Assembly: GCA_016789725.1 (NCBI GenBank)
Contig: JAEUQN010000024.1
Span: forward strand, 1 to 57,976
Direction: 5' to 3'
Origin: Blastocatellia bacterium
Lineage (GTDB): Bacteria > Acidobacteriota > Blastocatellia > RBC074
DNA length: 57,976 nucleotides
Shown here: piece after piece, positions 23,001 to 57,976 of the stretch
Position numbering within the stretch: the stretch's first letter is position 1
How the letters are laid out: the number at the start of each line of letters is the position of its first letter
Notes under the pieces: model-generated
Databases searched by the model: none
What the model was told of the DNA's origin: nothing
What the model saw: only the letters and a program-made list of their open reading frames with translations
Translations under genes and position numbers: made by a program

Positions 23001-26000
23001 ACCAGGATTAGAGTGATTGACAATGATCTCAGCTTGATACTCAGGTGCATAAATTACCTGAAGTGATACGCTGGCTTTATTGCCGGTAATATCAGTCCCT
23101 GTAACCGTAATAGTATTCACTCCTATTTTTAGGCCAATCGGGTAGGAGTTCCATTTAATAGATTGATAAGTACCTGCTTCGATAGACGTCGTGCTTATTC
23201 CACGATCAGTCGTAATCTGGAGCGGGACAAGTATCCCAGTATGATCAGAGGCCGACCCCGTCAAAGTAATTCTGGCTATCCCTGTTCTGTATAAACCGGC
23301 GGTCGTGGGTGTCTGAATGGTTATGGCGGGTGGCGTACGATCAGCAGAAGGTGATTGAACGATGGTGTGACTTTTCCCCGCAATGGTTAGCGTTCCGACG
23401 CGCTCCTCATTGAAAGTGTTAGCAGTTACGGTAAAGGCGACTGAGCCATTGCCCTTCCCGCTCGTTCCCGAATCAATCGTAACCCAAGTAGCATTGCTGT
23501 TGGCCTGCCAGTCACAAGTAGCCGTTGTCGCAACGCTAACACTACTTTTGCCACCATCACCAGAGAAATGCTGCTGAGCCGAAGAAAGAGTCGAGGAACA
23601 GAGTTGCGTGTCTAATACCACGCGCCAGACGCCACGTCCATGAGTGAACGCATACAGACTCGTGACACCGTTCACGGTATTGATAATCAGAGATTCGACC
23701 GCGACGTTGGCAAACCTCGTATTTTCGACTGCCCAGGTATTGCCCTTGTCCGTAGATGAAAAAACTCCGAGGTCTGTGCCAATAAACAGTCGGGAGGAAT
23801 TTGATGGATCAACCGCGATAGAGTTTACAGGGATGTCGGGTAATCGCCCTGTGCCTTGACCATCAATGGCAATCCATTGACTCCCCAAATCAGAAACGCG
23901 GTACACATGCGATCCTCCAAAAGTTGAATAAACAGCATAAAAAGCGCGCTTATCGAAAGGATCAAAAGCAACGCCAGAAACAAACCCATTGCGCGGCGTC
24001 GTGTAAAGCCATGAACCTTTTGAGATCGCACCACCTGAGTAATAAATGCTACCACCACTCGTACCAGCGATTACATAATTGGAATCCAACGCCGAAACCG
24101 CGATGCAGCCTACCTGCAAACCACCTGTACTCGCGGCTTCAACCCAGCTTGCAGCGCCGTTCCCTGTTCTCCAGATTTTTTCGCCGCCGGTCCATAATTG
24201 AAGTGAATTACTGGGGTCTATAGTCAGAGGAGCAATAAACAACGGGCGCGTGTCTGCAATTCCTAAAACGGCCTCCGCAAATGTCAACCCGCCATCCGTT
24301 GACTTCAAAAACCTCCCGCCGGGTGTGGACGCATACAATACCTGCGGATTCATGGGATCAATGGCTGTATAGCCGCCATCGCCGCCGTAAATCTCGCGCC
24401 AGCCATTGATGCTGTTGGCATCGGTTCCCAACAGCGTCCCATTATCCTGCGTCCCGCCAAAGTAGCTTTTGCCGTCCGGGAAGACTGCGCCGTGATAGAA
24501 CTGCGTCACGCCGTAGTTGTTATTCAACGAAGTCCAGCGCACACCACTGGCCGATGGATTGCACGTAGCGGTGATGCCCGTTGCGACCAAAGCTCTGGCG
24601 TCGTCGGTGCGATACACGCCCCCGTCGTTGCCTATAAACATCTGTTTGTTACTCGTTCCGTTGTAGTTTGGATGAAACGCAATGATGTGATGATCGGCGT
24701 GGGCATATTGCGGGACGCTCGGCTCCGGCCACCAGTACGAGGCGATGCCCCAATTCGCACCGCCATCGTCTGAGCGAAATAAATCAATGCCGCCAACCCA
24801 GACCTTGTTTTCATCCAAAGGGTCTACGGCAATGACATTGTTGTACCAGCCCTGATTGGAAAAGCCGCCCGCGCCGAGGCCACATTCGGAACGGAATGCG
24901 CCCAGTGGATTGGAAAACAAAACCGTGTTGAGCTTGAGGGCATTGTTATTGCGCGCCTGCGCTGTCCACGTGCCAGAATCGCCACTGCTCGTTGAACGAA
25001 ATACGGCGTGTAACCCATCACGAAAAGGACCGGACAACGTGCTGGCAGCAACCGCATAAATGACGTTTTGATTCGATGGCGCAAGGGCTAACGAAGTCCG
25101 CCCCATTCCATTTTCTCGATAAACCGAGGTCCAGGTTCCGGCTCCTCCGGCATCGGTGTTGCGAAAGATTTCTGCCCCCCTGAAAGTTCCACAGGCGGCA
25201 AAGATGTAGTCGGTTGTTTGATCGGTGCGGATCACCAAATCCAGACAACCATCCGTGTAATTCAAAACTTTTCCCCAAGTCGCTCCGCCATCCAACGAAC
25301 GCCACACGCCGGTATGCGTCCCGGCGTACAGGCGCTGCGAATTCGATTTGCTTACCACGATGTCATTGACGTAGTAAAAATCGGACGTGCCGGTGGTTTC
25401 AAGCCGTGTCCAATTCACGCCGCCATCGGTCGTGCGGAAAATCCCGGCTCCGCGCACGGCATCATTATTGAAAAAGCCTTCGCCTGTACCGGCATAAATC
25501 ACATCGGGATTATTCGGGTCAAAGGCCAAACAACTCACCGCGATGTTAGCGATCAAATCAGTTAATGGCTCCCAACGCGCTCCGCCATTCGTCGTCTTCC
25601 AGACACCGCCCGCCACACCTGCGGCATACATCACATTCGGAATCGTCGGATGAATCAACAACGACCGCGTGCGTCCGCCAATGTTGCCAGGGCCGAGCGG
25701 TTCCCACGCCCCAAGAGTGTCCGCAGAAGCTTCCGTGTGCGCGGCTTTCATTTCCCGGCGCGAAGGCAAAATTCGATTTTGTGCCGATGAATATTGGGGC
25801 ATCGCCTCCATATGTGTTTGGGCTGCGAGATATTTTTCGACGGGGATTTCGGTTTCACCAGTTGGCAATCGTTTGAGCCGATAATAGCCCATCGCTTCGC
25901 GCGGCTGATCGTAGCGAGGCTTCTCGCGCAACTCTTCATTCAGCTTTTCAACCACTCGTGACGGGAATTTTTGAGCCGCAGACGGCGAGGGTTGCGGTCC

Positions 26001-26228
26001 TGTTGGCGGCGCTGGAGTTCGTTTTCGCGCCGTTTGTATCGGCGACTTCGCTTCATTGTCAGACGAATTAGACGCGCGCGACGTTTCGGCAGCGGCCTGC
26101 TGATGGCTCAAACTTGGAGGTACAGGTGTAACAGGAAGCGGTGCTTTGTAATTTATGACGAACCACACACCTACTAAAGCGACGACGGAAACAACGAGTG
26201 CGAGGAAGAAACGGGATTGAATGTTCAT
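20073..26228 (-). CDS. Giant secreted BNR/sortilin-like, BACON, Ig-like and NHL repeat protein with TIGR03437 C-terminus
   Basis: 2051 residues. The N-terminal hydrophobic segment (about 7-25) is a signal anchor or signal peptide, followed by a Pro-rich stretch. Residues ~175-870 hold Asp-box/BNR repeats of the sortilin type (TTDGGVNWTRL, SLDGGATWGKV, SDDGGANWG, STDKGNTWAVE). Then a BACON-like domain (~876-963, CDWQANSNATWVTI), an Ig-like domain, a first NHL propeller (~1066-1380, GNIYIADTGNNRIRKI), a second Ig-like domain, and a second NHL propeller (~1480-1812). The C-terminal domain (~1820-2051, VSVFGANLATG, NYQIPAGTAAG) matches the TIGR03437 domain known from Solibacter. It is probably an extracellular or surface protein; the ligand is unknown. 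No clear ribosome-binding site. Confidence 0.88.
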   Translation of the reverse strand: MNIQSRFFLALVVSVVALVGVWFVINYKAPLPVTPVPPSLSHQQAAAETSRASNSSDNEAKSPIQTARKRTPAPPTGPQPSPSAAQKFPSRVVEKLNEELREKPRYDQPREAMGYYRLKRLPTGETEIPVEKYLAAQTHMEAMPQYSSAQNRILPSRREMKAAHTEASADTLGAWEPLGPGNIGGRTRSLLIHPTIPNVMYAAGVAGGVWKTTNGGARWEPLTDLIANIAVSCLAFDPNNPDVIYAGTGEGFFNNDAVRGAGIFRTTDGGVNWTRLETTGTSDFYYVNDIVVSKSNSQRLYAGTHTGVWRSLDGGATWGKVLNYTDGCLDLVIRTDQTTDYIFAACGTFRGAEIFRNTDAGGAGTWTSVYRENGMGRTSLALAPSNQNVIYAVAASTLSGPFRDGLHAVFRSTSSGDSGTWTAQARNNNALKLNTVLFSNPLGAFRSECGLGAGGFSNQGWYNNVIAVDPLDENKVWVGGIDLFRSDDGGANWGIASYWWPEPSVPQYAHADHHIIAFHPNYNGTSNKQMFIGNDGGVYRTDDARALVATGITATCNPSASGVRWTSLNNNYGVTQFYHGAVFPDGKSYFGGTQDNGTLLGTDANSINGWREIYGGDGGYTAIDPMNPQVLYASTPGGRFLKSTDGGLTFAEAVLGIADTRPLFIAPLTIDPSNSLQLWTGGEKIWRTGNGAASWVEAASTGGLQVGCIAVSALDSNYVIAGTSGGSIYYSGGAISKGSWLYTTPRNGFVSGVAFDPFDKRAFYAVYSTFGGSHVYRVSDLGSQWIAIDGQGTGRLPDIPVNSIAVDPSNSSRLFIGTDLGVFSSTDKGNTWAVENTRFANVAVESLIINTVNGVTSLYAFTHGRGVWRVVLDTQLCSSTLSSAQQHFSGDGGKSSVSVATTATCDWQANSNATWVTIDSGTSGKGNGSVAFTVTANTFNEERVGTLTIAGKSHTIVQSPSADRTPPAITIQTPTTAGLYRTGIARITLTGSASDHTGILVPLQITTDRGISTTSIEAGTYQSIKWNSYPIGLKIGVNTITVTGTDITGNKASVSLQVIYAPEYQAEIIVNHSNPGFGGDGGPASQARTNSPYGMCTDKSGNIYIADTGNNRIRKISTDGIINTIAGTGTQGFSGDGGPATQAQLAGPQQITADEQGNIYVVDNRRIRRVGTNGIISSVAGGGLDGVGNGGLAIQAGLEYVSGVAINKGGDLFIIDDNRIRKVTADTGIINAYAGGTGFGYGGDGGPVKDAVFTLIKGIGFDDLGNLYITENARIRKVDTQGIISTFAGNGSFGNPVDNVPAITSSVVPSGPIVADSLGNIYFTENRGTGENYLRRIDPQGIIKTIAFGIVGTQAVAVDNAGNVYSLTVALFKASPSSQDKIAPQIAITSPTTNSSYTTTNASLNLSGTASDNGKVIEIRWKNDRGGSGFIAGASNWSVPDLKLLPGPNTLTVTAWDDAGNESSANLLVTYNVPNTFTFVAGARSAGFNLESGSAVASQLYLPETVTLDSAGNLYIADKGNHRIRKVTRSGFISTVAGSGQLGSSGDGGLAINAAMNQPNGVAVDSAGNLYIADTNNHRIRKVTAAGLITTIAGTGIDGYSGDGSAATQAQLDTPVGIILDGAGNLLIADAGNHRVRKLNLSSGLITTIAGNGYGSGGDGGQATQAQLNFPTSVALDSAGNLYISDTSNHQVRKVSPAGIITRFAGTGTAGFSGDGGAAPSAQFTAPGGVTADAAGIIYITDQGNHRVRKVAIDGTITTVAGNGTTTSPTSDEGGVAANASLNAPAGVVVDSAGNLFIADTYNHRVVVVAAYQSAATVSAASYGNAQPVAAESIVSVFGANLATGDQLVTQFPLPTELAGTSVKVRDSLGVERLAPLFYVGKLQVNYQIPAGTAAGFATITITNGNGERFTSAVNIANVMPGLFTANQNGSGAAAAAILYFSNGSPRYESNFACDTSGQNCTARQIDLNAGDEVFLELYGTGIRNNSGLTNVTATVGGVSVPVLYANKQPDFIGLDQVNIQLPKTLAGRGEVDVVLTVDGKAANPVRINLK

Positions 26229-42050: not shown

Positions 42051-43868
42051 CTAGAGCAGGTTGAAAGTGAACTCAATGGACATCCGTACACTAACCGGTT
42101 GACCATTTTTCATCGCCGGGCGGAAGCGAATCTTTTGCGCAGCTTTAATCGCTTCCTCGTTCAAGCCGTCTGGCAACCCACGTGTAACACGAGGACCAGA
42201 AACGCGCCCATCTGCCGTAAAGACCACACTCACAACGACGACACCCTGCACACGATTCTGGCGTGCGGATTCGGTGTATTTGGCTTTCTCTTGATATAAG
42301 ATCGTCGGCCTCAAGCTTGCTGAGGCAGGGAAAATCCCGCCGGAACCATCCGTCCCCGCACCACCGCCAATTTCGCCTTTGCCACCACCTTTATTGAAGC
42401 CTTCGCCAGGACCTTGTCCACCGCCTTTACCATCGCCGAGTCCGGTTCCGCTGCCGCGTCCAAGTGAAGGTGGGGCATCAGCTCCATTTTCAAGCCCAAT
42501 CGGACCAGCCTTGGTAATCGAAAGCTTGTCATCCCCAATCGTTGTCGGAGCGACGACCAATGATGGATTCTTGATCGTGGGCGTCCGCAAAGTGGGAGGC
42601 ATCACCTGTGGCAACATCGTCATTTGCGGAGGCACGCCTTTGCTGACAGGCGCATTCGTATTCTGTCCGCCGCCACCTTGTGCCTGTTGCGGTTTGGGTT
42701 TGCTGCCACCGGTGAATCCATCCCCTTTTCCTTTCGGGATTTCTTTCTTAACTACCTCAATTTTCTTCTCAACCTTTGGCTCTTCCTCAGCCAGCGTTGG
42801 TTCCAACATGCGAAATTGCTCAGTCTTGGCCTGCACGGTCAGACATTGAGCGGGAAAGACCTGGCAGAACCAGCGATCCGAGAAAAAAACAAAGGCGAGC
42901 AAGGCCATCAGAGGAACCCAATTGGCTACTTCCAAACCGATCTTGGGTACCGCAATTCCCTGAGTGAATTTATTGATGATGCGGCTGAGCAAAAAGCCGC
43001 GAACGGCATAGCACCCGACCAGATAGGTGCTCAACGCAAGACAAACTACATTGAACATCACGGGCTTTTCTTTGCCTAGCAACGCCAAGGTGTGGAAGCA
43101 CAGATAGGCCGTGCCATAACCAATCACTGCCATTTCCGAACCGGCCAGCAGCATATTCCGGCGACGCATATTGCTGCCATCGCCGCGCACGAGTCCAACA
43201 AAAAACTGTTTGGGATCACTGCGTAATTCCTGCCACGCGGAGCCAAGTTCTCGTCCGACACGAGAGAACAACGACTCATCCGGGATTAAGACTTGAAACC
43301 CCTGCGTCGTTCCCGGAGCAAGCTTGCCGCCGACGAACTGGTTGTCTTTGATATTTTTTAGCGAAGCGACCAGGCGACTAATCAAGCTCGGAGCTTCTGG
43401 CAGCGCCAGGTTCAGACCAAAATCTTCGGCGGGAGCGGGAGCGATTTTCGCATTGCCGTTGGTCGCCACGTTGGCCGCCACAGTTGCCACAGGAGTCACT
43501 TTCGCAGCCTCGGCAACGACGGCTTTGGTTTCAACCGGAAGCGATGCCGGAACAGGAGGCGTCGGAGCCTTGTATTCCAAATCGCGGGGCGCAATATATG
43601 GCGCGGGCGCTGGAGCTTCAGGAACAGAAACAACCGCTTCTTCAATGACCGTCGGCGTAATCGTCGAAGCAGCTACTTCAGGAACGGCTTCGCGCGTAAC
43701 TTCAGGTCGAAGCACCTCGTTCAAAGCAGGCGTGATCACGGGCGCGGTAACTACGGCAGGCTGCGAGCGCCGGGCGTATTCTTCACTCGTAAGCAACGTT
43801 GAGTTATCTTGCGGGCAATATTTGAATCCATCTGGATAGCTAGATTGACAAGTCGAACAAATTTTCAT
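42051..43868 (-). CDS. TonB-family protein with N-terminal zinc ribbon
   Basis: 605 residues. It opens with a zinc-ribbon-like CSTCQSSYPDGFKYCPQD, then a long Pro/Ala/Val-rich stretch (about 30-160), a soluble part, hydrophobic helices (about 235-300 and 315-335), a Pro/Lys- and then Gly-rich linker (GGGQNTNAPVSKG, GKGGGQGPGEGFNKGGGKG), and a C-terminal TonB domain (about 515-605: RVQGVVVVSVVFTADGRVSG, GLNEEAIKAAQKIRFRPA). The TonB domain would be periplasmic and energise an outer-membrane receptor. No ExbB/ExbD or receptor is adjacent. The start has gaggtgaggc just upstream. Confidence 0.85.
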   Translation of the reverse strand: MKICSTCQSSYPDGFKYCPQDNSTLLTSEEYARRSQPAVVTAPVITPALNEVLRPEVTREAVPEVAASTITPTVIEEAVVSVPEAPAPAPYIAPRDLEYKAPTPPVPASLPVETKAVVAEAAKVTPVATVAANVATNGNAKIAPAPAEDFGLNLALPEAPSLISRLVASLKNIKDNQFVGGKLAPGTTQGFQVLIPDESLFSRVGRELGSAWQELRSDPKQFFVGLVRGDGSNMRRRNMLLAGSEMAVIGYGTAYLCFHTLALLGKEKPVMFNVVCLALSTYLVGCYAVRGFLLSRIINKFTQGIAVPKIGLEVANWVPLMALLAFVFFSDRWFCQVFPAQCLTVQAKTEQFRMLEPTLAEEEPKVEKKIEVVKKEIPKGKGDGFTGGSKPKPQQAQGGGGQNTNAPVSKGVPPQMTMLPQVMPPTLRTPTIKNPSLVVAPTTIGDDKLSITKAGPIGLENGADAPPSLGRGSGTGLGDGKGGGQGPGEGFNKGGGKGEIGGGAGTDGSGGIFPASASLRPTILYQEKAKYTESARQNRVQGVVVVSVVFTADGRVSGPRVTRGLPDGLNEEAIKAAQKIRFRPAMKNGQPVSVRMSIEFTFNLL

Positions 43869-47708: not shown

Positions 47709-47725
47709 TTGGCACGCCAGTTGAC
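47709..47725 (+). promoter_or_regulatory. Candidate sigma-54 promoter (-24/-12) of the DUF11 gene cluster
   Basis: The sequence ttggcacg-ccag-ttgac fits the sigma-54 consensus (YTGGCACG-N4-TTGCW) fully at -24 and with one change (A for C) at -12. It lies about 85 bases before the first DUF11 gene, in the same ~300-base divergent gap that begins upstream of lolA. A weaker ttggcaaattctgtcaa is found further upstream (about 47,610). The neighbouring operon encodes a sigma-54 activator. Activity is inferred. Confidence 0.5.
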
Positions 47726-47810
47726 TTGGGTTGGAACTGGTGTGTGGCGTGTTTCTGTGGAGTCTGCGCTGCACATCCTCAGCTCAATTGCAGTGAAAGG
47801 AAACGCGCAT

Positions 47811-48308
47811 ATGAAAACTCTCACCAAAAGTTCAAGTCTCATCTCTTTCTTTTTTTCCCTTCTCATCGCGGGCAGCGTCTTCGCTGCCTTGTATGGCCGA
47901 CCAGCGGTGAAGGTCTTTTTAGTGGGGACAGTAGAACGAAACCATCAGCCGCTCACCTTGGAAAAAGCCGGGCTGCTGAATCCGGGGGAAATTCTGCAAT
48001 GGACCATTAAGTCGCAGAATGACGGCAACGCTCCCGCCCATCACTACAAAACCATCGGTGAAATCCCCCCTGGCACCAGCTATGTGATCGGCAGCGCCCG
48101 CGCTGAAGGGAATGTCGGCGTTGTGTACAGCATTGATGGCGGCCAATCCTTCGAGGCCAAACCAATGATTGACCAAAAACAACCGGATGGCTCGGTCCGT
48201 AAAGTGGCGGCTCCCGCTTCGTCATACACGCACGTGCGATACGAATGGAATGACCCGCTCAGCGAAGGCAAACAGGTTTCGGCCTTCTACAAAGTACGTG
48301 TCAAATAA
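47811..48308 (+). CDS. Small secreted protein with one DUF11-like domain
   Basis: 165 residues. Signal peptide of about 26 residues (FFFSLLIAGSVFAA). The mature part is one beta-rich DUF11/TIGR01451-like domain: NPGEILQWTIKSQNDGNAPA, IGEIPPGTSYVIGSA, VYSIDGGQSFEAKP and a closing VSAFYKVRVK. ATG 47811 has gaaagg 10 bases upstream; the open frame before it overlaps the promoter region and is not used. First gene of the DUF11 cluster, followed by a hairpin and the next secreted protein. Confidence 0.75.
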   Translation: MKTLTKSSSLISFFFSLLIAGSVFAALYGRPAVKVFLVGTVERNHQPLTLEKAGLLNPGEILQWTIKSQNDGNAPAHHYKTIGEIPPGTSYVIGSARAEGNVGVVYSIDGGQSFEAKPMIDQKQPDGSVRKVAAPASSYTHVRYEWNDPLSEGKQVSAFYKVRVK

Positions 48309-48316
48309 CCTTGACC

Positions 48317-48348
48317 GAACTGGGAAGATGCAGTTCCTTCCTGTTTTT
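48317..48348 (+). terminator. Possible intrinsic terminator after the first DUF11 gene
   Basis: gaactg (48317-48322) pairs with cagttc (48331-48336) around an 8-base loop, followed by cttcctgttttt. It is short, so it may only attenuate transcription into the next gene. Confidence 0.4.
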
Positions 48349-48450
48349 ACAGCCCGCTTCAGTCTTTGACCGGGACAAACCGCAAGCCCTGTAGGCAAGT
48401 CTGTCTTCACCACCAACAACTAATTTCTATTTGTTCAGGAGTAATAAACG

Positions 48451-49962
48451 ATGAAGAGGAAAAATCACCTCTGGGGCAAGGTGCTGATCGGTGCGATTGC
48501 CCTTTTTACCAGCTTAGAAATAGCTTTCGCACAAGCCACTCCCGGCGGCACAGTGATTCGGAACAGAGCTTCTGCGACTTACACAGACGACGTTTCCAAT
48601 CCAACCAAATACAGTTCCACCTCCAACGAAGTCACGACGACGGTTTCCTACGTCGCCGGTCTTGAAATCACGCCTGACGGCAGCACGCCATCAACCACTG
48701 TCACGCCTAGTTCAACCGCGACATATACATTTACGGTCCGCAACCTTGGCAATTTCACAGACAACGTGGAATTCCTGGCCAGCGGAGCTAGTGTCCGACT
48801 GACTGGCCCAGGCACGATTGCGCAAGCGTTTGTGGACATCAATAGCAACGGCAATTACGATTCAGGGACGGACGTAGATATTCTTGGCAACGGCGCAGCC
48901 GTCACCACTTCGCTGGCACAAAGCGGTTCAGTCGCCGTGGTGGTCAAAGTCACTGTCAACTCAGGTGCAACCGCCGGACAAACACTCAAAGTAGATTTGG
49001 GCGACACGGCGGGCAGTTCCCCGTACGACAACCAAACGGCAGATAATTCGACCAACGAAGTTCACACCAAACATCCCGGCAGCATCACGGCAGTAAATGG
49101 CGAACGCGAAGCCAAGGGTGACATCACGATGACCGTCGGTGCAATCCCAGCCGTCACCAACGGACCAACAGGCCAGCCAGATGCGCAAGGCCCCGGTCCC
49201 AGCACCAACACGGATTACACGAACAAGGCCGTGAGTGCTTCCACCACCAACACGCCTATTGTTTTTGATAACACCCTCAAGAATGGTGGTAACTCGGCAG
49301 ACACCTTCACCCTAAAAGTAGCAACGGGTGGTGCGGTGGCCGGATCGAAAGTTGAAATCAGCATAGACGGTGGAACTTTGTGGACAGAAGTGATTACGAA
49401 CGGTTCGCCGAGCGGTACCCCTTCCGTCACGACAACGTCGGTCGCGTCCGGCTCAAACTTCAACTACAAAGTCCGCGTGACGCTGGCAAGTGGAGCCACG
49501 ACCTTGACCGCGTACGAAACCATTGTGCAGGCCTGTTCGGTACTTGATCCGACACAGATGAACAACACGATTGACCGCATTTATACGGGCTATCTACGCC
49601 TCGTCAAAACGGCGACCGTGACCAATGCGACAGGCATTGGCGGAGCAACGGAACCAGTGCCGGGTGCTGACATCGAATACGTGATTGCGTACGACAACAT
49701 TGCAAACGCTCCGACCGGGACCGGCAATGTTGATCTGGATGCGCTGCAAGTTGTCATCACGGAAGACGGCGATGTCTCGCCGAACAATTGGTCAACGACA
49801 ACGGACCGCGTCGCCAGCACCGAATCGGATTCACGTGGCGGCAGCATCGCCATCAGCAACAGTACCGGCGGGGTTGCCAACAGCAAATATGTGGACACCG
49901 TAGGAACTCTCGCGGGAGGGCAATCCGGGACGTTCCGATTCAAACGCAAAATCAAACAATAA
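48451..49962 (+). CDS. Secreted DUF11-type protein, about 500 residues
   Basis: 503 residues with a signal peptide (IGAIALFTSLEIAFAQ). It begins with GTVIRNRASATYTDD, the same opening as the barrel protein downstream (ITNQAHASYSDP). It then has a second beta-sandwich (TVTPSSTATYTFTVRNLGNFTDNVEF) with an EF-hand-like DINSNGNYDSGTDVD, followed by NTPIVFDNTLKNGGNSADTF and PVPGADIEYVIAYDNIANAP repeats. Thr/Ser/Asn-rich and Cys-poor, as in surface-exposed proteins. There is no anchor motif; it ends in FRFKRKIKQ. aggag is 9 bases before the ATG. Confidence 0.8.
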   Translation: MKRKNHLWGKVLIGAIALFTSLEIAFAQATPGGTVIRNRASATYTDDVSNPTKYSSTSNEVTTTVSYVAGLEITPDGSTPSTTVTPSSTATYTFTVRNLGNFTDNVEFLASGASVRLTGPGTIAQAFVDINSNGNYDSGTDVDILGNGAAVTTSLAQSGSVAVVVKVTVNSGATAGQTLKVDLGDTAGSSPYDNQTADNSTNEVHTKHPGSITAVNGEREAKGDITMTVGAIPAVTNGPTGQPDAQGPGPSTNTDYTNKAVSASTTNTPIVFDNTLKNGGNSADTFTLKVATGGAVAGSKVEISIDGGTLWTEVITNGSPSGTPSVTTTSVASGSNFNYKVRVTLASGATTLTAYETIVQACSVLDPTQMNNTIDRIYTGYLRLVKTATVTNATGIGGATEPVPGADIEYVIAYDNIANAPTGTGNVDLDALQVVITEDGDVSPNNWSTTTDRVASTESDSRGGSIAISNSTGGVANSKYVDTVGTLAGGQSGTFRFKRKIKQ

Positions 49963-49991
49963 CGATGGTGGCAATATTGATGGTGAATGAA

Positions 49992-50059
49992 GAAGGCTGG
50001 AACGGCGCGGCACGAAACTAAACGCACAGCGTTGACGCCACTGCCCCGCTCCAGCCTTC
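49992..50059. terminator. Stem-loop between the second and third DUF11 genes
   Basis: Arms 49992-50005 and 50046-50059 pair at 13 of 14 positions around a 40-base loop. No T-run follows. It may attenuate transcription or protect the upstream mRNA. Confidence 0.4.
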
Positions 50060-50126
50060 ATCCTTACGCTCTGTTCACGTTTTACCAATGGTCGGAGCAA
50101 TTGGGATGGAAGATTGGCTCAGACTT

Positions 50127-53100
50127 ATGTTTCATAAACTCACGACTCAGCTTGTGATGTTGGTGCTTATCGCGGTCGGCAGTGTTTGCGCCCAGGCCCA
50201 AACCCCTCCCACGGGAAACACCGGAACCATCGGCAAGGTCATCACAAATCAAGCTCACGCCAGTTACAGCGATCCCAGCGGCAACAATTATCAAACCTCT
50301 TCGACCCCCATCAGCCTGACTGTCAATGCTGTCGTCGCGCTGAGCGTCGCCCCCGACGACACACAACCAACCGGCATCCTCATTCCCAACGAATCGGTCA
50401 CGCGCATCTTTCGCGTTTGCAATGTTGGTAACGTCGAAGATACCTATGCAATCATTCAATCAACAATTACCGCTCCAGCGACCATCTCTGCCTTGTACTG
50501 GGACATAGATCAAAGCGGCACATTAACGCCAGCCGACACGCCAATCACCTTGAATACAACGCGCAGCCCATTGCTGCCAGCGGGCGAATGCCTGAACGTT
50601 CTCGTCATCGTTGCTTCCGGCGCGATCAAATTGGACGAGGTTATTACCATCGGGATTTCAGCCCGCTCCCAAACAGACCCCAACAAAACTGATCCCGGCA
50701 CGATCATCAACAAAGGCGGCGAAGCAACCAAAGTTTCTGATCCGGCAAACCCAGCGCTGCCGCCCGTTAAGTACGTCGAAAACAAAGACCACGTGACCTC
50801 GACCGCCGGAGCCATCCTCAATTACAGCATCAATTTTCGCAACAGTGGGGCAACACCTGCGGTCAACGTTCTACTCTCGGACGATTTACCAAGCGAATTG
50901 GATTATGTCCCCGGCACATTGAAGCTCGGCAACACGCCGCTGACGGATGCGATTGACGGCGACGTCGGCCATATCATCAACAGTCGCCGCATTGAAGTGA
51001 AGCTGGCGAATGTGGCTATCAACGAAGTCGTAACCGCTACTTTTCAGGCGCGGCTCAACAGCAACACGAAACCCGGTGTCGGCGTCATCAACACGGCTAT
51101 CGTGGCGGGTGACAATATTGGCACCGCCATCCGCACGGCTCGAACCACCGTCGTCATCAATCCCGAAGGCACTGTTTATGCGGGCTACAGTGGCGGCAGC
51201 GTCGTGATTTCGGGAGCACAGGTTTTAGTGACCACCGATCCCGAAGGCAAAGTGCCGTTGCCGATGTCAACCGGTGGTTTTTCGCCGAACCCCAATAATG
51301 AAAATCCTTTCCTGAGCGATCCGCGTGGTCACTTCGCGTTTGCCTTCGCGCCCAATCAGGTCGGAGCGCCGGGCGCACCTGCAACCTACTACGTTCACGT
51401 CACCGCGCCTGGCTATCGTGGGCGCGTCATCGAAGTGAAGTTGGAGCCAGCCGCGATTGGGCTTTTCAAGGTAGACGTGCGCAGTTTAGATGGGCAGCCG
51501 ATTGCACAAGCCGGAAGCTTTACCCTGACCACGTCGGGCGTCACGCTGGCAGACATCTCGGCGCTGGTGATGAACATTCCGATGTTCGAGAGCACAACCC
51601 TCCAACTCACGAAAGTCGCGGACAAACAACGCACCGAGATTGGAGACACCGTTTCATATCGGCTGGAAGCCCACAACGCCACGGCTGGAAAACTCAGCGA
51701 TGTGGAATTGGTGGATACATTGCCGCCGTCTTTCACCTACGTTCCCACAACCGCGCGCGTCCAAATCGGAAGCGCCGCCGTCAGCGCGCTTGAACCTGCC
51801 ATCGTCAATAACCAAATGGTGTTTGCGATTGGCGAATTAAATCCTGGCGCGCGCGTCATCATTACTTATCGGCTGCGCGTTGGTGCCAATGCCAGACAGG
51901 GCGAGCAAATCAATTCGGCCATCATTCAAGGCTTCTTTCCCAATGGCGACCCAGCGCGGACGCAACCGGTCAAAGCGCCGGTGTTAGTTGGGATGGGCGC
52001 GTTTTCGATGCGGCAAATCATCATCGGACGCGTGTTTGAAGATACAAACGGCAACGGCTTGTTTGAATCCTGTGACCGTCCGGTCATTGGCGCACGCATT
52101 TACCTGAACAATGGCGTTTCAGTCATCACCGATTCATTTGGCTTGTACAATTTTCCTTCGGTGGAAGAAGGCGCCACCGTCGTGGCCCTTGATCCAATCA
52201 CCGTTCCGAAAGGTTATGCGCTACAAGACAACAAACAAAAATCCGGTCGTAGTTGGACACGTTTGGTACGCACGCCGCTCGGTGGTGGCGGGTTGAATCG
52301 CGTCAATTTTGCACTGGAAAAAACAATTAATCCCGTCACCGAAACCGTCACGGACATCGGTTCCGTCGAAGCCAGCGTAACCACAACGACACCGGCAACG
52401 CCTGCGACACCTAATTCGCTGGCGGCAATGTGGGCGGCCAAAGGAAAAGATGGTGACGATGCGGCAGAAGAATCCGAAGCCGCTAAACGCGAGGCGAATG
52501 GCAAAGATAATGGTGCTTTCGACGGTGCATTTGATCGGCTGCTCAACAAACGCCCCGATCCCAAAACACGCGCGGGCGCAGTCGCAATGAACGTTGGCAA
52601 ATCCGGTCACAAAGCGCCCGGAACTTATGATGAAGCCGCTAACGACACGATCACGCCTGTCGAGCCGGGCAAGATTGTCGTGCTTTCGCCCGAAGCCAAC
52701 GAAGTGATTATGGAAAACGCGTTGCGGGTCGAAGCGCGCGTCCATCTGGATTACAACGTCGCGCTCGAAGTTGCGGGTCAACGCATTCCCGAAACCAATA
52801 TCGGCGTCAAAGAAGTAGACCGCAAAAACAAAGTGACGACCTTTGTCTTTGTTGGCGTCAACCTCAAGCCCGGCCCAAATCAGTTGAAAGTCATTGCAAT
52901 TGCGCCCGACAACTCGGAAGGCGACGCAGCAGAGTTGACCGTGATGGGACGCGGCCCAGCAGCACGATTGGAAATCCTGACCGATAAAAAAGAGATTCAA
53001 TCCGGCGGACGTGATTCCACAGTCGTGCGCGTCCGCGCCTATGACGCGTGGGGCAATCCGGCGCACGGTGGACAAGTCGGCGTCCAGGTTTCAGCAGGCC

Positions 53101-56100
53101 GATTGCTGCGACCTGACTATCAGGCAAACGCCAAAGAACCCAATAAAACTGCACCTGTGAACACTCCGGTGAACACAAACGACGAAAACGCGCCGCCCGT
53201 TCAAGCGGCATCAAGCGCGACGGCTTCCGGCTCGACCTGCACACGAACGGCGACCAAAAAAGGTGAGAAACAAGATTGCATTGCGGCACTTGCCACGCAA
53301 CAAGGCATCAGCCGCGAAGACGCCGAGAAACTGCGCTCGCCCTTGATTGGCGCGGGCGGCGAGCCACTCAACGGCTTCTCCTCCGAGCAGGTCAATGCCA
53401 CTTCACGCCAGCAAATTCTCTCGCTCGAAAGTGGCGAAGCAATGATTGAACTGATTGGTGAAGGTCAACCGGGCAATGCAGAACTTCGTGCCTTTAGCGG
53501 CGATTTACAAGCACAAAACCAGATTCGCTTCACGCCGGAAATTCGCCCTCAAATTCTCGTCGGCTTAGCCGAAGCATCGTTTGGAAAAGCAGCGCCAGAC
53601 ATCGCGTTGCGTGGCAGTGATAAGAATTATCGGCATCACACGGAATTCTATTTTCGCGGGCCGCTGTTGTTCGAGTCGCAATTAACATTGGCCTACAACA
53701 GCTTCCGTCCATTAACGCGCACGGATGGACGCGACCGCCGATTCTTCCTTGACCCGTTGGATCGCGTGTATCCCGTGTTCGGCGATTCTTCGACGCGCTT
53801 TGAAGATGCACAATCGAACTCGAAACTCTACGCGCGCATTGATCGAGGCCGATCCTACGCGATGTTTGGCGACTTTGACGCGGGCCAGCAGGAAACCATC
53901 AACAATCGCGTCACCCCCACGCCAGTCACGAACCTCGCCGAAAATTTAGCGAGCGCGGGCATCGGCAATTCGATCCTGAATAACTTCAACAGCATCCCGG
54001 TGTTTGCCAATCAAGGCCCTCAACTCACGGGTTACAACCGGCGTCTCACAGGCGTCAAAGTTCACCTTGAAAGCGAAGGCGGCAGTTCATTGACCTTGAC
54101 CGGAGCGCGGCCCGACACGGCATTTGCGCGCGATGTTTTCGCGGCCAGCACATTGGGGTTGGTGCGATTGTCGCGCAGCGATGTGTTGCAAGGTTCAGAA
54201 ACCATCGTCCGCGAAGTGCGTGACCGTCGCAATCCTGAACTCATCTTGCAACGTGAAGTGTTGGTGCGGTCGGTGGATTACAACCTTGATCCGTACCTCG
54301 GTTCAATCTACTTCCTGCGCCCGCTTTCGACGTTTGATTTCGCGCTGAATCTGGTCCAAATCGTAGCAACCTATGAGTACCGCGCAGTAGGGATGAACTC
54401 TGCGGTGTACACAGCGCGCGGCGCGAAAAATTTCAACGGCACCGGCACGCGCATTGGCACGACGTTCGTAGATCAACGACAAGATACGCTCGGTTCGTTT
54501 TATCTCGGCGGCGTAGATGTTGAGCAACGCCTCGGCAAAAAAGGCATCGTGCAAGCCGAATGGGGAATGAGCAACGGACGCGTCGCATCAAGTGGCAGCT
54601 ATTTCGGTTTCCAGGGTTTGGCAGGCAGCCTCAACAGCGGCAATGCCACCCACAACGGCAGCGCATTTCGCGTCGAATATCGTCAGCCACTGAATTTCAA
54701 CGAAGCGCAATTACAGCTAACGTTCTCGAAAGCTGCGCAAAACTTCTTCAATCCATTCGGCACGACGATCACACCAGGTTCACAACGCGGTTCGGTCGCG
54801 CTGGATTTAAAGCCAATCCAGTCGGCGCAAATGCGGCTCGGCTTTACGGATGAACGCAATCGCACGGCGGTTTTCAATAACAGTCGCCGCACGGCTTCGA
54901 TTGGCTGGCTGCAAAGTTTTGGCGATAAGTTCCGCATGAGTCTGGGCTACGATTATCGCAACTTCGATGACAACTCCGGCAGCGCATTGGCGAACAATGC
55001 GAACGCCAATGCAGATGCCAATGGCAGCACGGCGACACCCGCGACAGCCTCCCAATTTGCCGGACGCGAAGTGACATCGCACTTGGTTACAGCGGGTGCG
55101 GAGTATACGCCCAACGACAAGCTCAACATTGCCATCAAGCGTGAACAAAATCTGGGCGAAGCTGATCCGACATATCCGAATCAAACAACGATTGCGGCCA
55201 GCTATCAGGTCAATTCATTGGCGAAAGTGTTTTTCACGCAACGGCTCGCCTCGCAAGCCATCACCGCTATCAGCGATGTCAGTTCGTTTGGTTTTGCTGA
55301 AACCGCGTCGCGTCGTGAAACTGCGATTGGCGTGGAATCACCGCTCAACAAATACACCACGATGAGCGGTCGTTATCAAATCAATAATGGATTGAACGGC
55401 ACAGACAGCTTCGCGGTTATCGGGCTGATGAATCGCTTCCCGATCAATAAAGTGCTGTCGTTGGATGCGGGATATGAACGCGGCATGCATTTGCGCGGCG
55501 AAGGCAACAGCTTCAATAACGCAATGTTCGGCTTCAGTTATAACCCAACCGACAACTTCCGTTCGGCGGCGCGGTATGAACTGCGCGATTTGTACGGCTT
55601 CGGCAACATCTTTACGGTGGGAGCGGCAGGCAAATTATCCGAAAGCTGGACAACGCTGGGACGCTTTCAATATTCACGCACCGAATTTCGCAATCAAGGC
55701 AACAACCTGATGATGAACGGGCAACTCGCAATGGCGTGGCGTCCGCTAAGTTCGGATAAGACGGCGTTTCTGATGAGTTATACACATCGGTCCATTGAGC
55801 AAGGCGCGCGACAAGGCTTTGGCGCAGCCATTGACCGCGACGAGATTTTGGCCGCCGATGGTTTGTATCAACCGTTCCGTCGGCTGGAGCTATATGGTCG
55901 TTATGCCATGAAGTTTAACCGCTCTGGCCGAGATCAGGTGCCAATGGTTTCCACTTTAACTTCCTTGGTTCAAGGTCGCGCCGAATTGCGATTCGCACAG
56001 TACTTCGATGTAGCGACTGAAGCACGGTTGTTATGGTTGTCAGGAACAGGTTCGCGGCGAACTTCCATCGGCGCAGAACTGGGCTTCTGGGCGCTTTCCG

Positions 56101-56330
56101 ATGTGCGATTGGCGGGCGGCTACAATTTCACGCAGATGAAAGAAAGCCCCGGTTACTTCGGTGGTTTTGGAACCTTCACCAACAATCTCAACACGCGCCA
56201 AGGCTTTTATTTCGTCGTGTCCTCGAAGCTCTCAAACATGTTCAATTTGTTCGGGACTTCGCCAACTGGCCTGGTCGGACACGAAGCCTCTCCGGCAACT
56301 AACCCGCCCTCCACATCAGAGAAAAAATAA
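50127..56330 (+). CDS. Large secreted DUF11 protein with predicted outer-membrane beta-barrel
   Basis: About 2067 residues. Signal peptide (LTTQLVMLVLIAVGSVCAQA). The N-terminal module (GKVITNQAHASYSDP, RIFRVCNVGNVEDTY) is related to the preceding protein. DUF11 domains lie at about 227-341 and 491-601 (NSGATPAVNVLLSDDLPSEL, DTVSYRLEAHNATAG). An SdrD-B/Cna-B-like domain with an EF-like DTNGNGLFESCD is at ~629-690. An acidic/Ala linker, a YD-like and Ig/invasin-like part, then from ~1140 to the end alternating beta-strands typical of a large barrel (YRHHTEFYFRGPLLFESQL, YARIDRGRSYAMFGDFDAG, GAEYTPNDKLNIAIK). The start is uncertain: ATG 50088 and 50106 are also in frame. Confidence 0.8.
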   Translation: MFHKLTTQLVMLVLIAVGSVCAQAQTPPTGNTGTIGKVITNQAHASYSDPSGNNYQTSSTPISLTVNAVVALSVAPDDTQPTGILIPNESVTRIFRVCNVGNVEDTYAIIQSTITAPATISALYWDIDQSGTLTPADTPITLNTTRSPLLPAGECLNVLVIVASGAIKLDEVITIGISARSQTDPNKTDPGTIINKGGEATKVSDPANPALPPVKYVENKDHVTSTAGAILNYSINFRNSGATPAVNVLLSDDLPSELDYVPGTLKLGNTPLTDAIDGDVGHIINSRRIEVKLANVAINEVVTATFQARLNSNTKPGVGVINTAIVAGDNIGTAIRTARTTVVINPEGTVYAGYSGGSVVISGAQVLVTTDPEGKVPLPMSTGGFSPNPNNENPFLSDPRGHFAFAFAPNQVGAPGAPATYYVHVTAPGYRGRVIEVKLEPAAIGLFKVDVRSLDGQPIAQAGSFTLTTSGVTLADISALVMNIPMFESTTLQLTKVADKQRTEIGDTVSYRLEAHNATAGKLSDVELVDTLPPSFTYVPTTARVQIGSAAVSALEPAIVNNQMVFAIGELNPGARVIITYRLRVGANARQGEQINSAIIQGFFPNGDPARTQPVKAPVLVGMGAFSMRQIIIGRVFEDTNGNGLFESCDRPVIGARIYLNNGVSVITDSFGLYNFPSVEEGATVVALDPITVPKGYALQDNKQKSGRSWTRLVRTPLGGGGLNRVNFALEKTINPVTETVTDIGSVEASVTTTTPATPATPNSLAAMWAAKGKDGDDAAEESEAAKREANGKDNGAFDGAFDRLLNKRPDPKTRAGAVAMNVGKSGHKAPGTYDEAANDTITPVEPGKIVVLSPEANEVIMENALRVEARVHLDYNVALEVAGQRIPETNIGVKEVDRKNKVTTFVFVGVNLKPGPNQLKVIAIAPDNSEGDAAELTVMGRGPAARLEILTDKKEIQSGGRDSTVVRVRAYDAWGNPAHGGQVGVQVSAGRLLRPDYQANAKEPNKTAPVNTPVNTNDENAPPVQAASSATASGSTCTRTATKKGEKQDCIAALATQQGISREDAEKLRSPLIGAGGEPLNGFSSEQVNATSRQQILSLESGEAMIELIGEGQPGNAELRAFSGDLQAQNQIRFTPEIRPQILVGLAEASFGKAAPDIALRGSDKNYRHHTEFYFRGPLLFESQLTLAYNSFRPLTRTDGRDRRFFLDPLDRVYPVFGDSSTRFEDAQSNSKLYARIDRGRSYAMFGDFDAGQQETINNRVTPTPVTNLAENLASAGIGNSILNNFNSIPVFANQGPQLTGYNRRLTGVKVHLESEGGSSLTLTGARPDTAFARDVFAASTLGLVRLSRSDVLQGSETIVREVRDRRNPELILQREVLVRSVDYNLDPYLGSIYFLRPLSTFDFALNLVQIVATYEYRAVGMNSAVYTARGAKNFNGTGTRIGTTFVDQRQDTLGSFYLGGVDVEQRLGKKGIVQAEWGMSNGRVASSGSYFGFQGLAGSLNSGNATHNGSAFRVEYRQPLNFNEAQLQLTFSKAAQNFFNPFGTTITPGSQRGSVALDLKPIQSAQMRLGFTDERNRTAVFNNSRRTASIGWLQSFGDKFRMSLGYDYRNFDDNSGSALANNANANADANGSTATPATASQFAGREVTSHLVTAGAEYTPNDKLNIAIKREQNLGEADPTYPNQTTIAASYQVNSLAKVFFTQRLASQAITAISDVSSFGFAETASRRETAIGVESPLNKYTTMSGRYQINNGLNGTDSFAVIGLMNRFPINKVLSLDAGYERGMHLRGEGNSFNNAMFGFSYNPTDNFRSAARYELRDLYGFGNIFTVGAAGKLSESWTTLGRFQYSRTEFRNQGNNLMMNGQLAMAWRPLSSDKTAFLMSYTHRSIEQGARQGFGAAIDRDEILAADGLYQPFRRLELYGRYAMKFNRSGRDQVPMVSTLTSLVQGRAELRFAQYFDVATEARLLWLSGTGSRRTSIGAELGFWALSDVRLAGGYNFTQMKESPGYFGGFGTFTNNLNTRQGFYFVVSSKLSNMFNLFGTSPTGLVGHEASPATNPPSTSEKK

Positions 56331-56368
56331 GGCGCGCCAGGAATTGAATCAGAGAAGGATTACGAGGA

Positions 56369-57976
56369 ATGAAGACAGGAAGCAGATTTCAGAATCACCC
56401 AGCTCCTCACAGCCAAACGAAGAGCAATGACGTCTGGAGAGGTTGGCGCGGGCTGTGCCTTCGAGCCTTGGCGTTGCTCATGGCGCTCAACCCCTTGCTG
56501 ATGACGGCGAGTTTGCCCCGCACCGCAACCGCCGCACCGCCCAGCAGCACTGCCATTTATGTCATGGAAGGGTCAGGCAGCAGTGCCGTCCGAAACCTCC
56601 GCACAGTGAATACCTCGACGGGGGTTCTGTCTTCCATCGTATTTACAACCGGCGTCAGCAATAGCGCGGCGTTGTCCATTGATCCGACAAACCTGTATTT
56701 GTATTACGTTGATCGTTCGACCACGCCCAACCAACTGCGGCGATATGATGGAACCACGGAGTCGGCCTCCATTGGAACTTTTTCGGGGACCAGTTCTGGC
56801 ACAGTCATTCTCAGGATGGGATTTCGCGGGGCAACCGGATTCGCTATTGACTCGGCCAATAATGCCTTTTCTTTTACCAACACAGCGCCCTCAACCATCA
56901 CCTCCCTCGGAGCGATTACCTTTCAGGGAACTTCTCCGTCTGGGTCAACTTCGAGCGGCGACATTGCGTTTGATGGTAATGGGCGCGGCTGGGCCATCTT
57001 TGGCAACTCGCTGTACCGCATGGATTTCAATTCCAGTCCGATCAATGCCTATCCGATTGGGCAAATTACGATTGGCGGGACACCTCTCAGCACGGGATCG
57101 TCTACCGTTGGCAGTATTGCATTTGACTCTTCCGGCAATTTATTAATTGCAGCAGTGAGCGGCACCTCCTCAACGATTTATAATGTCAGCATTAATGACG
57201 CCACTGCTGTACAGGTCGGGTCAACAATGGCCAGCACTATTATCAGTGACTTTGCCAGTGGCAACCTCCCGCTCATTGACCCCAATATCGTCGCCACAAA
57301 ATCTGTCAGCCCAACAGGTAATGTCAGCCCCGGCGCAACCTTGACCTATACGATTGAAATCGAAAACACTGGCAATGCGCCAACGGTTGTTTCGACCTTC
57401 ACCGATGCGCTCCCAACCGGAACGACCTATGTTGCCAACAGCGCGACGCTGAACGGTACAAGTCTGGGAGCAGCGTCTTATCCCTTCAGCACGGCTTACG
57501 CAATTAATGGCCGCAACGCATCAGCAGGAGCAATCAAAACCGGTTACAGTAATCGCGCGACCATTACCTATCAAGTTACGGTCAACACCTCAAGCCCCCC
57601 TGCTGTCATTAACAATAGTGGCGTCATCACATATCTCGACGGTCCCAGCGGCGGAGTTTCGACGAACATCACCACGACCAATGTTGATGCGGTGGTGAAT
57701 GGCTACAAATCCGTCAAGCTCACAACCGACGCAGACAGCAGCGGTTCTGTAACACCGGGCGACACTTTAACGTGGACGATTTCATACAAAAATACGACGG
57801 CTCTCAGTGCCACCAGTTTTCAGATCAATGATCCACTTCCCACTGGTGTGACGATCACCTCAACCGGTGCCCAGAGCGTTTCTGTTTCTGGTTCAGGAAC
57901 CAGTGCCAGCATCAATGCTTCTTATACAGGTGCAGCAAGTGGGGCGGTGAGTAATCTGTTAGCCGCCGGAGCTACT
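56369..57976 (+). CDS. Secreted DUF11-repeat protein, 3' end outside window
   Basis: Open for 536 codons to the right edge. The N-terminus is a long basic stretch followed by a hydrophobic segment (LRALALLMALNPLLMTASLP), a signal peptide of the extended kind. Residues ~55-300 look like a beta-propeller or WD-like segment (IYVMEGSGSSAVRNLRTVNT, SIDPTNLYLYYVDRS). The first classic DUF11 domain starts near residue 310 (VATKSVSPTGNVSPGATLTY, NTGNAPTVVSTFTDALPTG) and a second near residue 445 (DTLTWTISYKNTTALSATSF). Ribosome-binding cgagga and aagga lie just before ATG 56369. It follows the barrel gene by 38 bases, so probably the same operon. Confidence 0.8.
   Translation, partial: MKTGSRFQNHPAPHSQTKSNDVWRGWRGLCLRALALLMALNPLLMTASLPRTATAAPPSSTAIYVMEGSGSSAVRNLRTVNTSTGVLSSIVFTTGVSNSAALSIDPTNLYLYYVDRSTTPNQLRRYDGTTESASIGTFSGTSSGTVILRMGFRGATGFAIDSANNAFSFTNTAPSTITSLGAITFQGTSPSGSTSSGDIAFDGNGRGWAIFGNSLYRMDFNSSPINAYPIGQITIGGTPLSTGSSTVGSIAFDSSGNLLIAAVSGTSSTIYNVSINDATAVQVGSTMASTIISDFASGNLPLIDPNIVATKSVSPTGNVSPGATLTYTIEIENTGNAPTVVSTFTDALPTGTTYVANSATLNGTSLGAASYPFSTAYAINGRNASAGAIKTGYSNRATITYQVTVNTSSPPAVINNSGVITYLDGPSGGVSTNITTTNVDAVVNGYKSVKLTTDADSSGSVTPGDTLTWTISYKNTTALSATSFQINDPLPTGVTITSTGAQSVSVSGSGTSASINASYTGAASGAVSNLLAAGAT

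Follow-up and report, generated by a model that had tools for sequence, protein, structure and literature searches.

The window analyzed here is a DNA stretch of 57,976 nucleotides, the entire contig JAEUQN010000024.1 (C166 in our numbering) of a Blastocatellia bacterium (assembly GCA_016789725.1; 7.77 Mb, 88.6% complete). Four adjacent genes on its plus strand, p1 to p4, encode proteins that look exported, with signal peptides judged by eye. Our analyses indicate that the proteins of this cluster likely assemble head to tail through split DUF11 domains, forming a surface fiber anchored by the predicted barrel of p3. Gene order, the ends of the proteins and residue conservation were read directly from the sequences, and from these we infer domain complementation, the fiber, its polarity and its location. 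A previous sequence-only reading of this DNA had described four neighboring exported proteins (165, 503, 2067 and more than 536 residues for p1 to p4, respectively), with an outer-membrane barrel limited to the 2067-residue protein; both observations held, the barrel being predicted in p3 alone of the four. The split-domain relation between the protein ends was absent from that reading and supplies a specific assembly mechanism.

Split DUF11 domains at the protein ends

In the DUF11 crystal structure 9IFR, the isopeptide residues are Lys715, Asp748 and Asn806, and the final hairpin of the domain holds the Asn of this Lys-Asp-Asn bond (PMC12617251). Complete DUF11 domains in our alignments are laid out with the Lys in the first strand, followed by the Asp and then by a last hairpin with the Asn. 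The proteins p1, p2 and p4 stop one beta-hairpin short of the end of such a domain, at the end of strand F. The reference for this measurement was a 144-column profile with the Asn at column 107. It was built from 58 internal domains that are complete, of which 21 p4-type proteins gave 46 and p3 gave 12; windows possibly touching the C-terminal domain of a protein were kept out. The Lys is present in 42 of these 58 domains, and the Asp and Asn in 57 each; the complete p3 domains have the whole triad in 34/34 homologs.

We tested 28 p1, 29 p2 and 21 p4 proteins against this profile. Where the alignment reached the C-terminus, the last residue was at columns 96–98 of 144 in 17/18 p1, 19/19 p2 and 5/6 p4. 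Held-out proteins (with loci L067 and L068 excluded as members of the window's class) ended at the same columns in 6/6 p1, 6/6 p2 and 3/3 p4 from other classes of Acidobacteriota, and in 1/2 p1, 3/4 p2 and 3/3 p4 from other phyla (7 p1, 7 p2 and 6 p4 tested). Among 120 cyanobacterial-type p1 homologs, 39 reached the end, 38 of them at column 97 and one at column 96. The sequences within all these counts are mutually related and are not independent. The p4 of loci L026, L027 and L029 (of another type, or with a broken open reading frame, ORF), p4 open at a contig end, and the Kovacikia and Acinetobacter p4 were left out of the profile and joining tests.

The AlphaFold2 model of p1 (predicted local distance difference test score, pLDDT, 93.6) has its last strand at the C-terminus. 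By structure alignment its last residue corresponds to residue 307 of RrgB (2X9Z), whose bond joins Lys193 to Asn318 (PMC12617251). Foldseek with p1 returned nothing at E 0.001 or better, and 9IFR was not among the matches listed, an absence that carries no weight. Sequence searches for relatives in the PDB gave none for p3, and for p1 only weak fragments, mostly of sialidases.

A candidate for the missing hairpin was found at the opposite end of other cluster proteins. Directly after the signal peptide, p2 and p3 start with the pattern [A/G]GTxIxNxAxAxYxD...TxSNxVxVxV. A DUF11 tail-only profile, made from the first domain alignment by keeping only rows with tail letters, scored at least 5 bits within the first 110 residues of 20/30 p2 and 26/42 p3. 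Elsewhere it did so in 0/28 p1, 0/29 p4, 0/7 barrel-half proteins, 2/414 other ORFs and 1/72 shuffled sequences. The putative donor Asn is present in 34/34 p3 and in 20/21 Blastocatellia p2, the exception having Met (locus L037).

Hairpins were then joined in silico to the acceptor tails (45 residues) and scored with the rebuilt 58-domain profile. Mean domain scores of the tails alone were 3.5 (p1), 8.9 (p2) and 4.1 bits (p4), and that of the hairpin alone was about 10. After joining, the means were 22.3, 22.0 and 17.6 bits, as against 8.6, 8.1 and 5.0 with a shuffled hairpin, and the genuine hairpin was superior in every case (28/28 p1, 29/29 p2 and 21/21 p4). For p4 this gain was absent with the first profile, which was contaminated by C-terminal domains of p4: there the genuine hairpin outscored the shuffled one in 6 or 7 of 21. 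Donors were chosen by a loose motif that yielded one in 65 of 70 proteins; as this motif demands Asn or Met, the Asn found in 63/65 donors is circular and was not used. P0031, with an apparent wrong start, and the p2 of L016 and L026 were left out as donors. Under the Pfam DUF11 model (PF01345, CLIPPER; cut-off 24.6 bits), p3 and p4 of the window score 58.6 and 39.7 bits, and p1 and p2 fall below the cut-off. The score of p1 rose from 16.5 bits to 24.0 with the p2 hairpin and 27.1 with the p3 hairpin, compared to 19.4 with a shuffled one. A search for natural p2-p3 fusions (Rosetta-stone test) found no long p2 match among 240 proteins.

In other Acidobacteriota, p2 has only about 295–313 residues. 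The p2 of locus L065 consists of the hairpin (columns 100–139), one middle domain (columns 13–144) and the acceptor (columns 4–97), and its Pfam DUF11 match (42.3 bits) stops at model position 83 of 114, which is residue 293 of 295. From the best 120 of 718 homologs of this minimal p2, four outside 285–315 residues were dropped. All 116 full-length proteins that remained end at column 97 or 98, and the N-terminal hairpin was detected as well in 113. The Lys and the Asp are each present in the C-terminal part of 116/116, and the Asn in the N-terminal part of 112/116, with Ser in the other four. Judged by these residues, a complete center would require the N-terminus of a copy to come together with a C-terminus, either its own or that of another copy.

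These ends bear on the possibility that there is no polymer. In that case p3 would be a porin or outer-membrane anchor bearing an arm of DUF11 domains, p1, p2 and p4 would be adhesins or coat proteins that are secreted on their own and sit on p3, and the ends would be a habit of the domain. DUF11 domains are commonly stalk modules (PMC12617251), and the best Foldseek matches of the p3 barrel model were the Deinococcus S-layer porin SlpA and its complex, at a template modeling (TM) score of about 0.25. We nevertheless consider this explanation improbable. The ends are not arbitrary, as the uniform end of minimal p2 demonstrates, and isopeptide residues are kept on both sides of the cut. Of ten further DUF11 ORFs, five are additional genes of p4 type that share this end, one is an overlapping frame and one is cut by the end of its locus. 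The other three serve as controls: they lie outside the cluster, in the same genome or loci, have a visible end, and stop elsewhere. A shifted domain border is no explanation either, because the published bonds (Lys715-Asn806 in 9IFR and Lys193-Asn318 in RrgB) fix that border.

Conservation of the p1–p4 cluster

The genes p1–p4 form a conserved unit. A second cluster with the gene order of the window is present in the same genome on contig C111, where it consists of p1 (156 residues), two p2 (761 and 678 residues), p3 (1939 residues, 40% identical to that of the window) and a complete p4 (1274 residues). A search with the p3 barrel region matched 833 proteins, the best 120 of which were listed, and 30 relative loci were taken from GTDB genomes, all Acidobacteriota by title. 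Sufficient sequence upstream of p3 was available in 19 of these loci, giving 21 clusters with the window and C111. In all 21, p1, p2 and p3 occur in that order on one strand, with p2 directly before p3. Exceptions were seen in gene integrity, p2 being in two parts in L039 and p3 broken in L031, L035, L036, L037 and L039. In 24/32 clusters the p3 stop is followed by a same-strand ORF that starts within about 100 bases; in L016, L022 and L038 the ORF behind p3 is masked by an overlapping frame of greater length. The remaining five clusters end too early.

Barrel matches were identified in 17 of 199 Acidobacteriota genomes, and the 12 genomes with a strong p1 match (at least 148 bits, a threshold chosen post hoc at a gap above the next match of 65 bits) are all among these 17 (P ~1e-15). 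At E 0.001 the p1 profile passes in 50/199 genomes, where it touches other DUF11 proteins. A single contig carries both the p1 gene and the barrel, at most about 9 kb apart, in 11 of these 12 genomes (in G137 they are on two contigs), and in the remaining five barrel genomes the matches are partial. The cluster is an accessory trait, since the barrel occurs in 31/147 genomes of the window's class and, in the window's family, in this genome alone among 11 listed.

The cluster spans at least three phyla. Plasmid records were searched by tblastn with the window barrel and its cyanobacterial relatives as queries. In Thermus thermophilus HB8, plasmid pTT27 has p1, p2, the N-terminal half of p3, the barrel half of p3 and p4 at TTH_RS10905 to TTH_RS10925. 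Unlike HB8, pTT27 of strain HB27 (L048) has a shortened p3 N-terminal half and a barrel gene, with p1, p2 and p4 unannotated in the stretch covered. Relatives were also found in T. brockianus, Deinococcus aetherius and D. ficus. The cyanobacteria Kovacikia and Synechococcus NIES-970 have the cluster with p2 ahead of p1, and a plasmid of Acinetobacter haemolyticus has a partial cluster with a fragmented p2 region. In Acidobacteriota and Acinetobacter p3 is a single gene, and in Deinococcota and cyanobacteria it is two adjoining or overlapping genes. Profiles derived from Blastocatellia pick up most parts in the records from other phyla; the Thermus barrels are barely seen by them (9 bits or no match), and nothing was matched in the proteins at the p4 position in D. 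aetherius and Acinetobacter. The sequence-only reading had allowed for the neighborhood not being conserved in relatives; we found the cluster kept in Blastocatellia, Deinococcus and Thermus.

Proposed assembly and comparison with known systems

In the assembly that we propose, the open domain at the C-terminus of one subunit would receive the N-terminal hairpin of the p2 or p3 next to it. Based on the distribution of donors and acceptors, the polarity would be from a p4 tip through a p2 shaft to a p3 base. With only a C-terminal acceptor, and with N-terminal binding modules, p4 would be the tip; p2, with both donor and acceptor, would be the repeating shaft; and p3, with only a donor plus the barrel, would be the base in the outer membrane. 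As an acceptor without bond residues, p1 may cap free hairpins or start chains, in either case non-covalently. A tip that binds something fits with the CBM96 carbohydrate-binding module of the L063 p4 (65.3 bits, cut-off 26) and the beta-helix of the D. ficus protein in the p4 position. Further p4-type genes with the same strand-F end lie behind p4 in L022 (4700–10972), L020 (17137–19602) and L025 (17247–19694), which suggests that they are alternative tips.

Where an acceptor keeps the Lys and an Asp or Glu, insertion would complete the Lys-Asp-Asn center, and the joint would seal itself as an intermolecular isopeptide bond. Such a joint would be a natural likeness of the SpyTag/SpyCatcher pair. 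Lys and Glu were found in all 23 Blastocatellia p2 checked. The p4 acceptor has the Asp in 20/21 and the Lys in 9/11 aligned in that column. Other residue data speak against a universal bond. Glu replaces Asp in Blastocatellia p2, including that of the window. In p1 the bond residues are lacking (Asp in 1/28; no Lys in the three aligned there, and gaps in 25). The Lys is also missing from Deinococcus and cyanobacterial p2, as aligned, and from the acceptors of three p4. In addition, 62 of 293 columns of minimal p2 are conserved at 95% or more, so that invariance alone is no proof of catalysis. The covalent bond is predicted where its residues are kept and cannot be universal.

The fiber might also be held together non-covalently throughout, the hairpin completing the domain with no intersubunit isopeptide bond in any lineage. 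The Lys is missing from p1 and from several p2 and p4, yet these proteins keep the split, as this version would have it. We regard it as rather unlikely given the near-invariance of Lys, Asp and Asn in minimal p2, even though they lie on opposite ends of the chain. The strongest form of the covalent version is a natural zipper in several Gram-negative phyla, with half a CLIPPER domain at each end, welded by autocatalytic isopeptide formation with no sortase and no dedicated chaperone. We put this forward tentatively, at a little under an even chance.

The barrel is relevant to another explanation, that p3 is a secretion pore, of two-partner or usher-like type, for p1, p2 and p4, and that hairpin-acceptor pairing is a cargo recognition signal. 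The p3 hairpin does fit the C-termini of every cargo type, and p3 is split into an arm gene and a barrel gene in Deinococcota and cyanobacteria. However, the hairpin is on p2 too, which would be needless for a pure cargo signal, and the barrel showed no relation to known secretion pores in Pfam; neither p3 nor the Thermus barrel protein matched the usher family (PF00577), and p3 did not match the type V autotransporter barrel (PF03797). A dedicated secretion device is therefore highly improbable in our view. The barrel model has, by our own count, about 41 strands of at least 7 residues; its confidence is low, and more than one barrel may be present in it. We know of no single barrel as large as 41 strands.

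Several considerations count against the proposed fiber. The confident folding of p1 alone in AlphaFold2 means that completion by a partner is not forced, and the p2 hairpin may fill its own acceptor. The loose hairpin motif was present near the N-terminus of 3/34 p1 and 10/25 p4 (0 and 1, respectively, with the tail profile). When the hairpin and the DUF11 tail were compared as profiles, using the contaminated first set of domains, the match was in register, though weak (19% probability over 13 columns). With the Pfam DUF11 model there was no gain for Thermus p1, and the C-terminal domain of the window p2 was unmatched with or without the hairpin. The low confidence of the barrel model is a further such point, and the N-terminal half of p3 may be either outside or in the periplasm. 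In the open-license PMC literature we found no interaction, fiber or bond reported for these proteins. The terms "donor strand" and "DUF11" occurred together there only in the F-ENA preprint, on spore fibers, and as far as our searches show the four-part, multi-phylum system is unnamed in that literature.

The fibrillar DUF11/CLIPPER adhesins (9IFR, PMC12617251) are of the same family, and Lys-Asp-Asn occurs likewise in the complete p3 domains and most p4-type ones. Their domain is whole within one chain and the bond intramolecular, whereas in the cluster the cut falls at the ends of the chains and the domain would be shared between subunits. DUF11 domains also form long surface filaments, as in GhlA of Litorilinea, with 49 DUF11 domains, and the related GhpA of Aureispira (PMC13319060). 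These are giant single chains that run along the filament and assemble side by side, and not subunits joined by split domains.

The cluster is predicted to resemble chaperone-usher pili (type 1 and P pili; in part PMC9715654) in that an N-terminal donor completes the Ig-like domain of a neighbor, the tip is acceptor-only and the base is in the outer membrane. It differs in having a hairpin with an isopeptide Asn, not a single strand, in belonging to a different domain family, and in its base, which would itself be a donor subunit fused to a barrel. Because Pfam identified no usher-family barrel, we do not class the cluster, on its sequences, as a chaperone-usher pilus. No PapD-type chaperone match was found among the scanned genes of the window and relative loci, a scan that covered part of the neighbors. 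In the sortase pili of Gram-positive bacteria (RrgB and others), subunits are joined by sortase at an LPXTG motif. No LPXTG-type sorting signal was seen at the cluster C-termini examined by eye, which end at strand F.

The archaeal thread of Saci_0406 would also be like the proposed fiber in its head-to-tail donor-strand complementation and apparent intermolecular isopeptide bond, Asp24-Asn57, to a subunit two positions away, as resolved by cryo-electron microscopy (PMC9715654). It differs in having no outer membrane or barrel, a single main subunit, and an Asp-Asn rather than Lys-Asn bond.

If the proposed assembly is correct, the cluster would be a donor-complemented fiber system unrelated to the chaperone-usher pathway, occurring in Acidobacteriota, Deinococcota and cyanobacteria and partly on an Acinetobacter plasmid, and it could be tested in cultured Thermus thermophilus HB8. 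If the covalent version is also correct, it would represent a natural self-welding Ig-like polymer and a precedent for split-tag chemistry, and it might supply thermostable parts. Many hypothetical proteins of these clusters annotated as "DUF11 domain-containing" would thereby gain a testable role as tip, shaft, cap or base.

The window locus and flanking genes

Table 1. Coordinates of the cluster genes and their predicted parts in the window
Feature	Position	Strand	Description
p1	47811..48308	+	165 residues; signal peptide and single DUF11-like domain minus last hairpin
p2	48451..49962	+	503 residues; N-terminal donor hairpin, C-terminal incomplete DUF11-like domain
p2 putative donor hairpin	48541..48660	+	~residues 31–70, Asn38; directly behind signal peptide (sequence, profile)
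p2 putative acceptor domain	49576..49959	+	~residues 376–503; Lys386, Glu438; no Asn hairpin; stops at strand F
p3	50127..56330	+	2067 residues; donor hairpin, two complete DUF11 domains, SdrD_B-like domain, predicted barrel
p3 putative donor hairpin	50226..50342	+	~residues 34–72; Asn41 invariant in 34/34 aligned homologs
p3 first complete DUF11 domain	50748..51161	+	Lys215/Asp252/Asn322 invariant, 34/34
p3 second complete DUF11 domain	51588..52010	+	Lys496/Asp530/Asn596 invariant, 34/34
p3 C-terminal predicted beta-barrel	53484..56291	+	stretch submitted to modeling
p4	56369..57976	+	at least 536 residues, DUF11 repeats; C-terminal acceptor beyond contig end

The SdrD_B-like domain of p3 scores below the Pfam cut-off, and p4 is truncated because the contig ends there. 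Divergent from p1–p4 are genes for LolA, a HAD-IB phosphatase and a GAF-GAF-sigma54 activator. The sequence-only reading had included LolA as an export factor of the system, which was not borne out. With the window LolA as phmmer query, no match (E 1e-5) was found around the C111 cluster or among ORFs from the 30 relative loci, several of which are short, and we rejected LolA as a member. The surface structure suggested in that reading, a barrel anchor with DUF11 relatives, stands in that the barrel protein and the exported relatives belong together, but without LolA.

In place of the divergent GAF-type sigma54 activator of the window, 14/19 relative loci with p1 have a same-strand sigma54 activator upstream. 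In L013 the activator is a receiver-type response regulator beside a histidine kinase, and the C111 cluster has a sigma54 activator on the opposite strand, about 3.4 kb upstream. A common sigma54 promoter was rejected as a general feature: sites in 4/21 upstream regions only (L025, L031, L039 and L009) beat nearly all shuffles, that of L039 falls inside a gene, and the window has no such site.

Other genes were observed in passing. On the minus strand of the window, 20073–26228 encodes a 2051-residue protein with NHL/teneurin-type propeller repeats and BACON domains, and 42051–43868 a 605-residue protein with a CxxC-type N-terminus, a Gly-rich linker and a TonB C-terminal domain. Beside the second cluster (L009 1–4834, on C111) is a 1445-residue repeat protein, open at the edge and with a distinct C-terminal part, followed by a 161-residue ORF; we take the protein to be Rhs-type and the arrangement to be that of polymorphic-toxin loci. 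In L011 (489–6170, on C35), a 1231-residue protein with one complete DUF11 domain adjoins a 653-residue protein with a HELTH-type motif, which presumably resembles contractile-injection core proteins.

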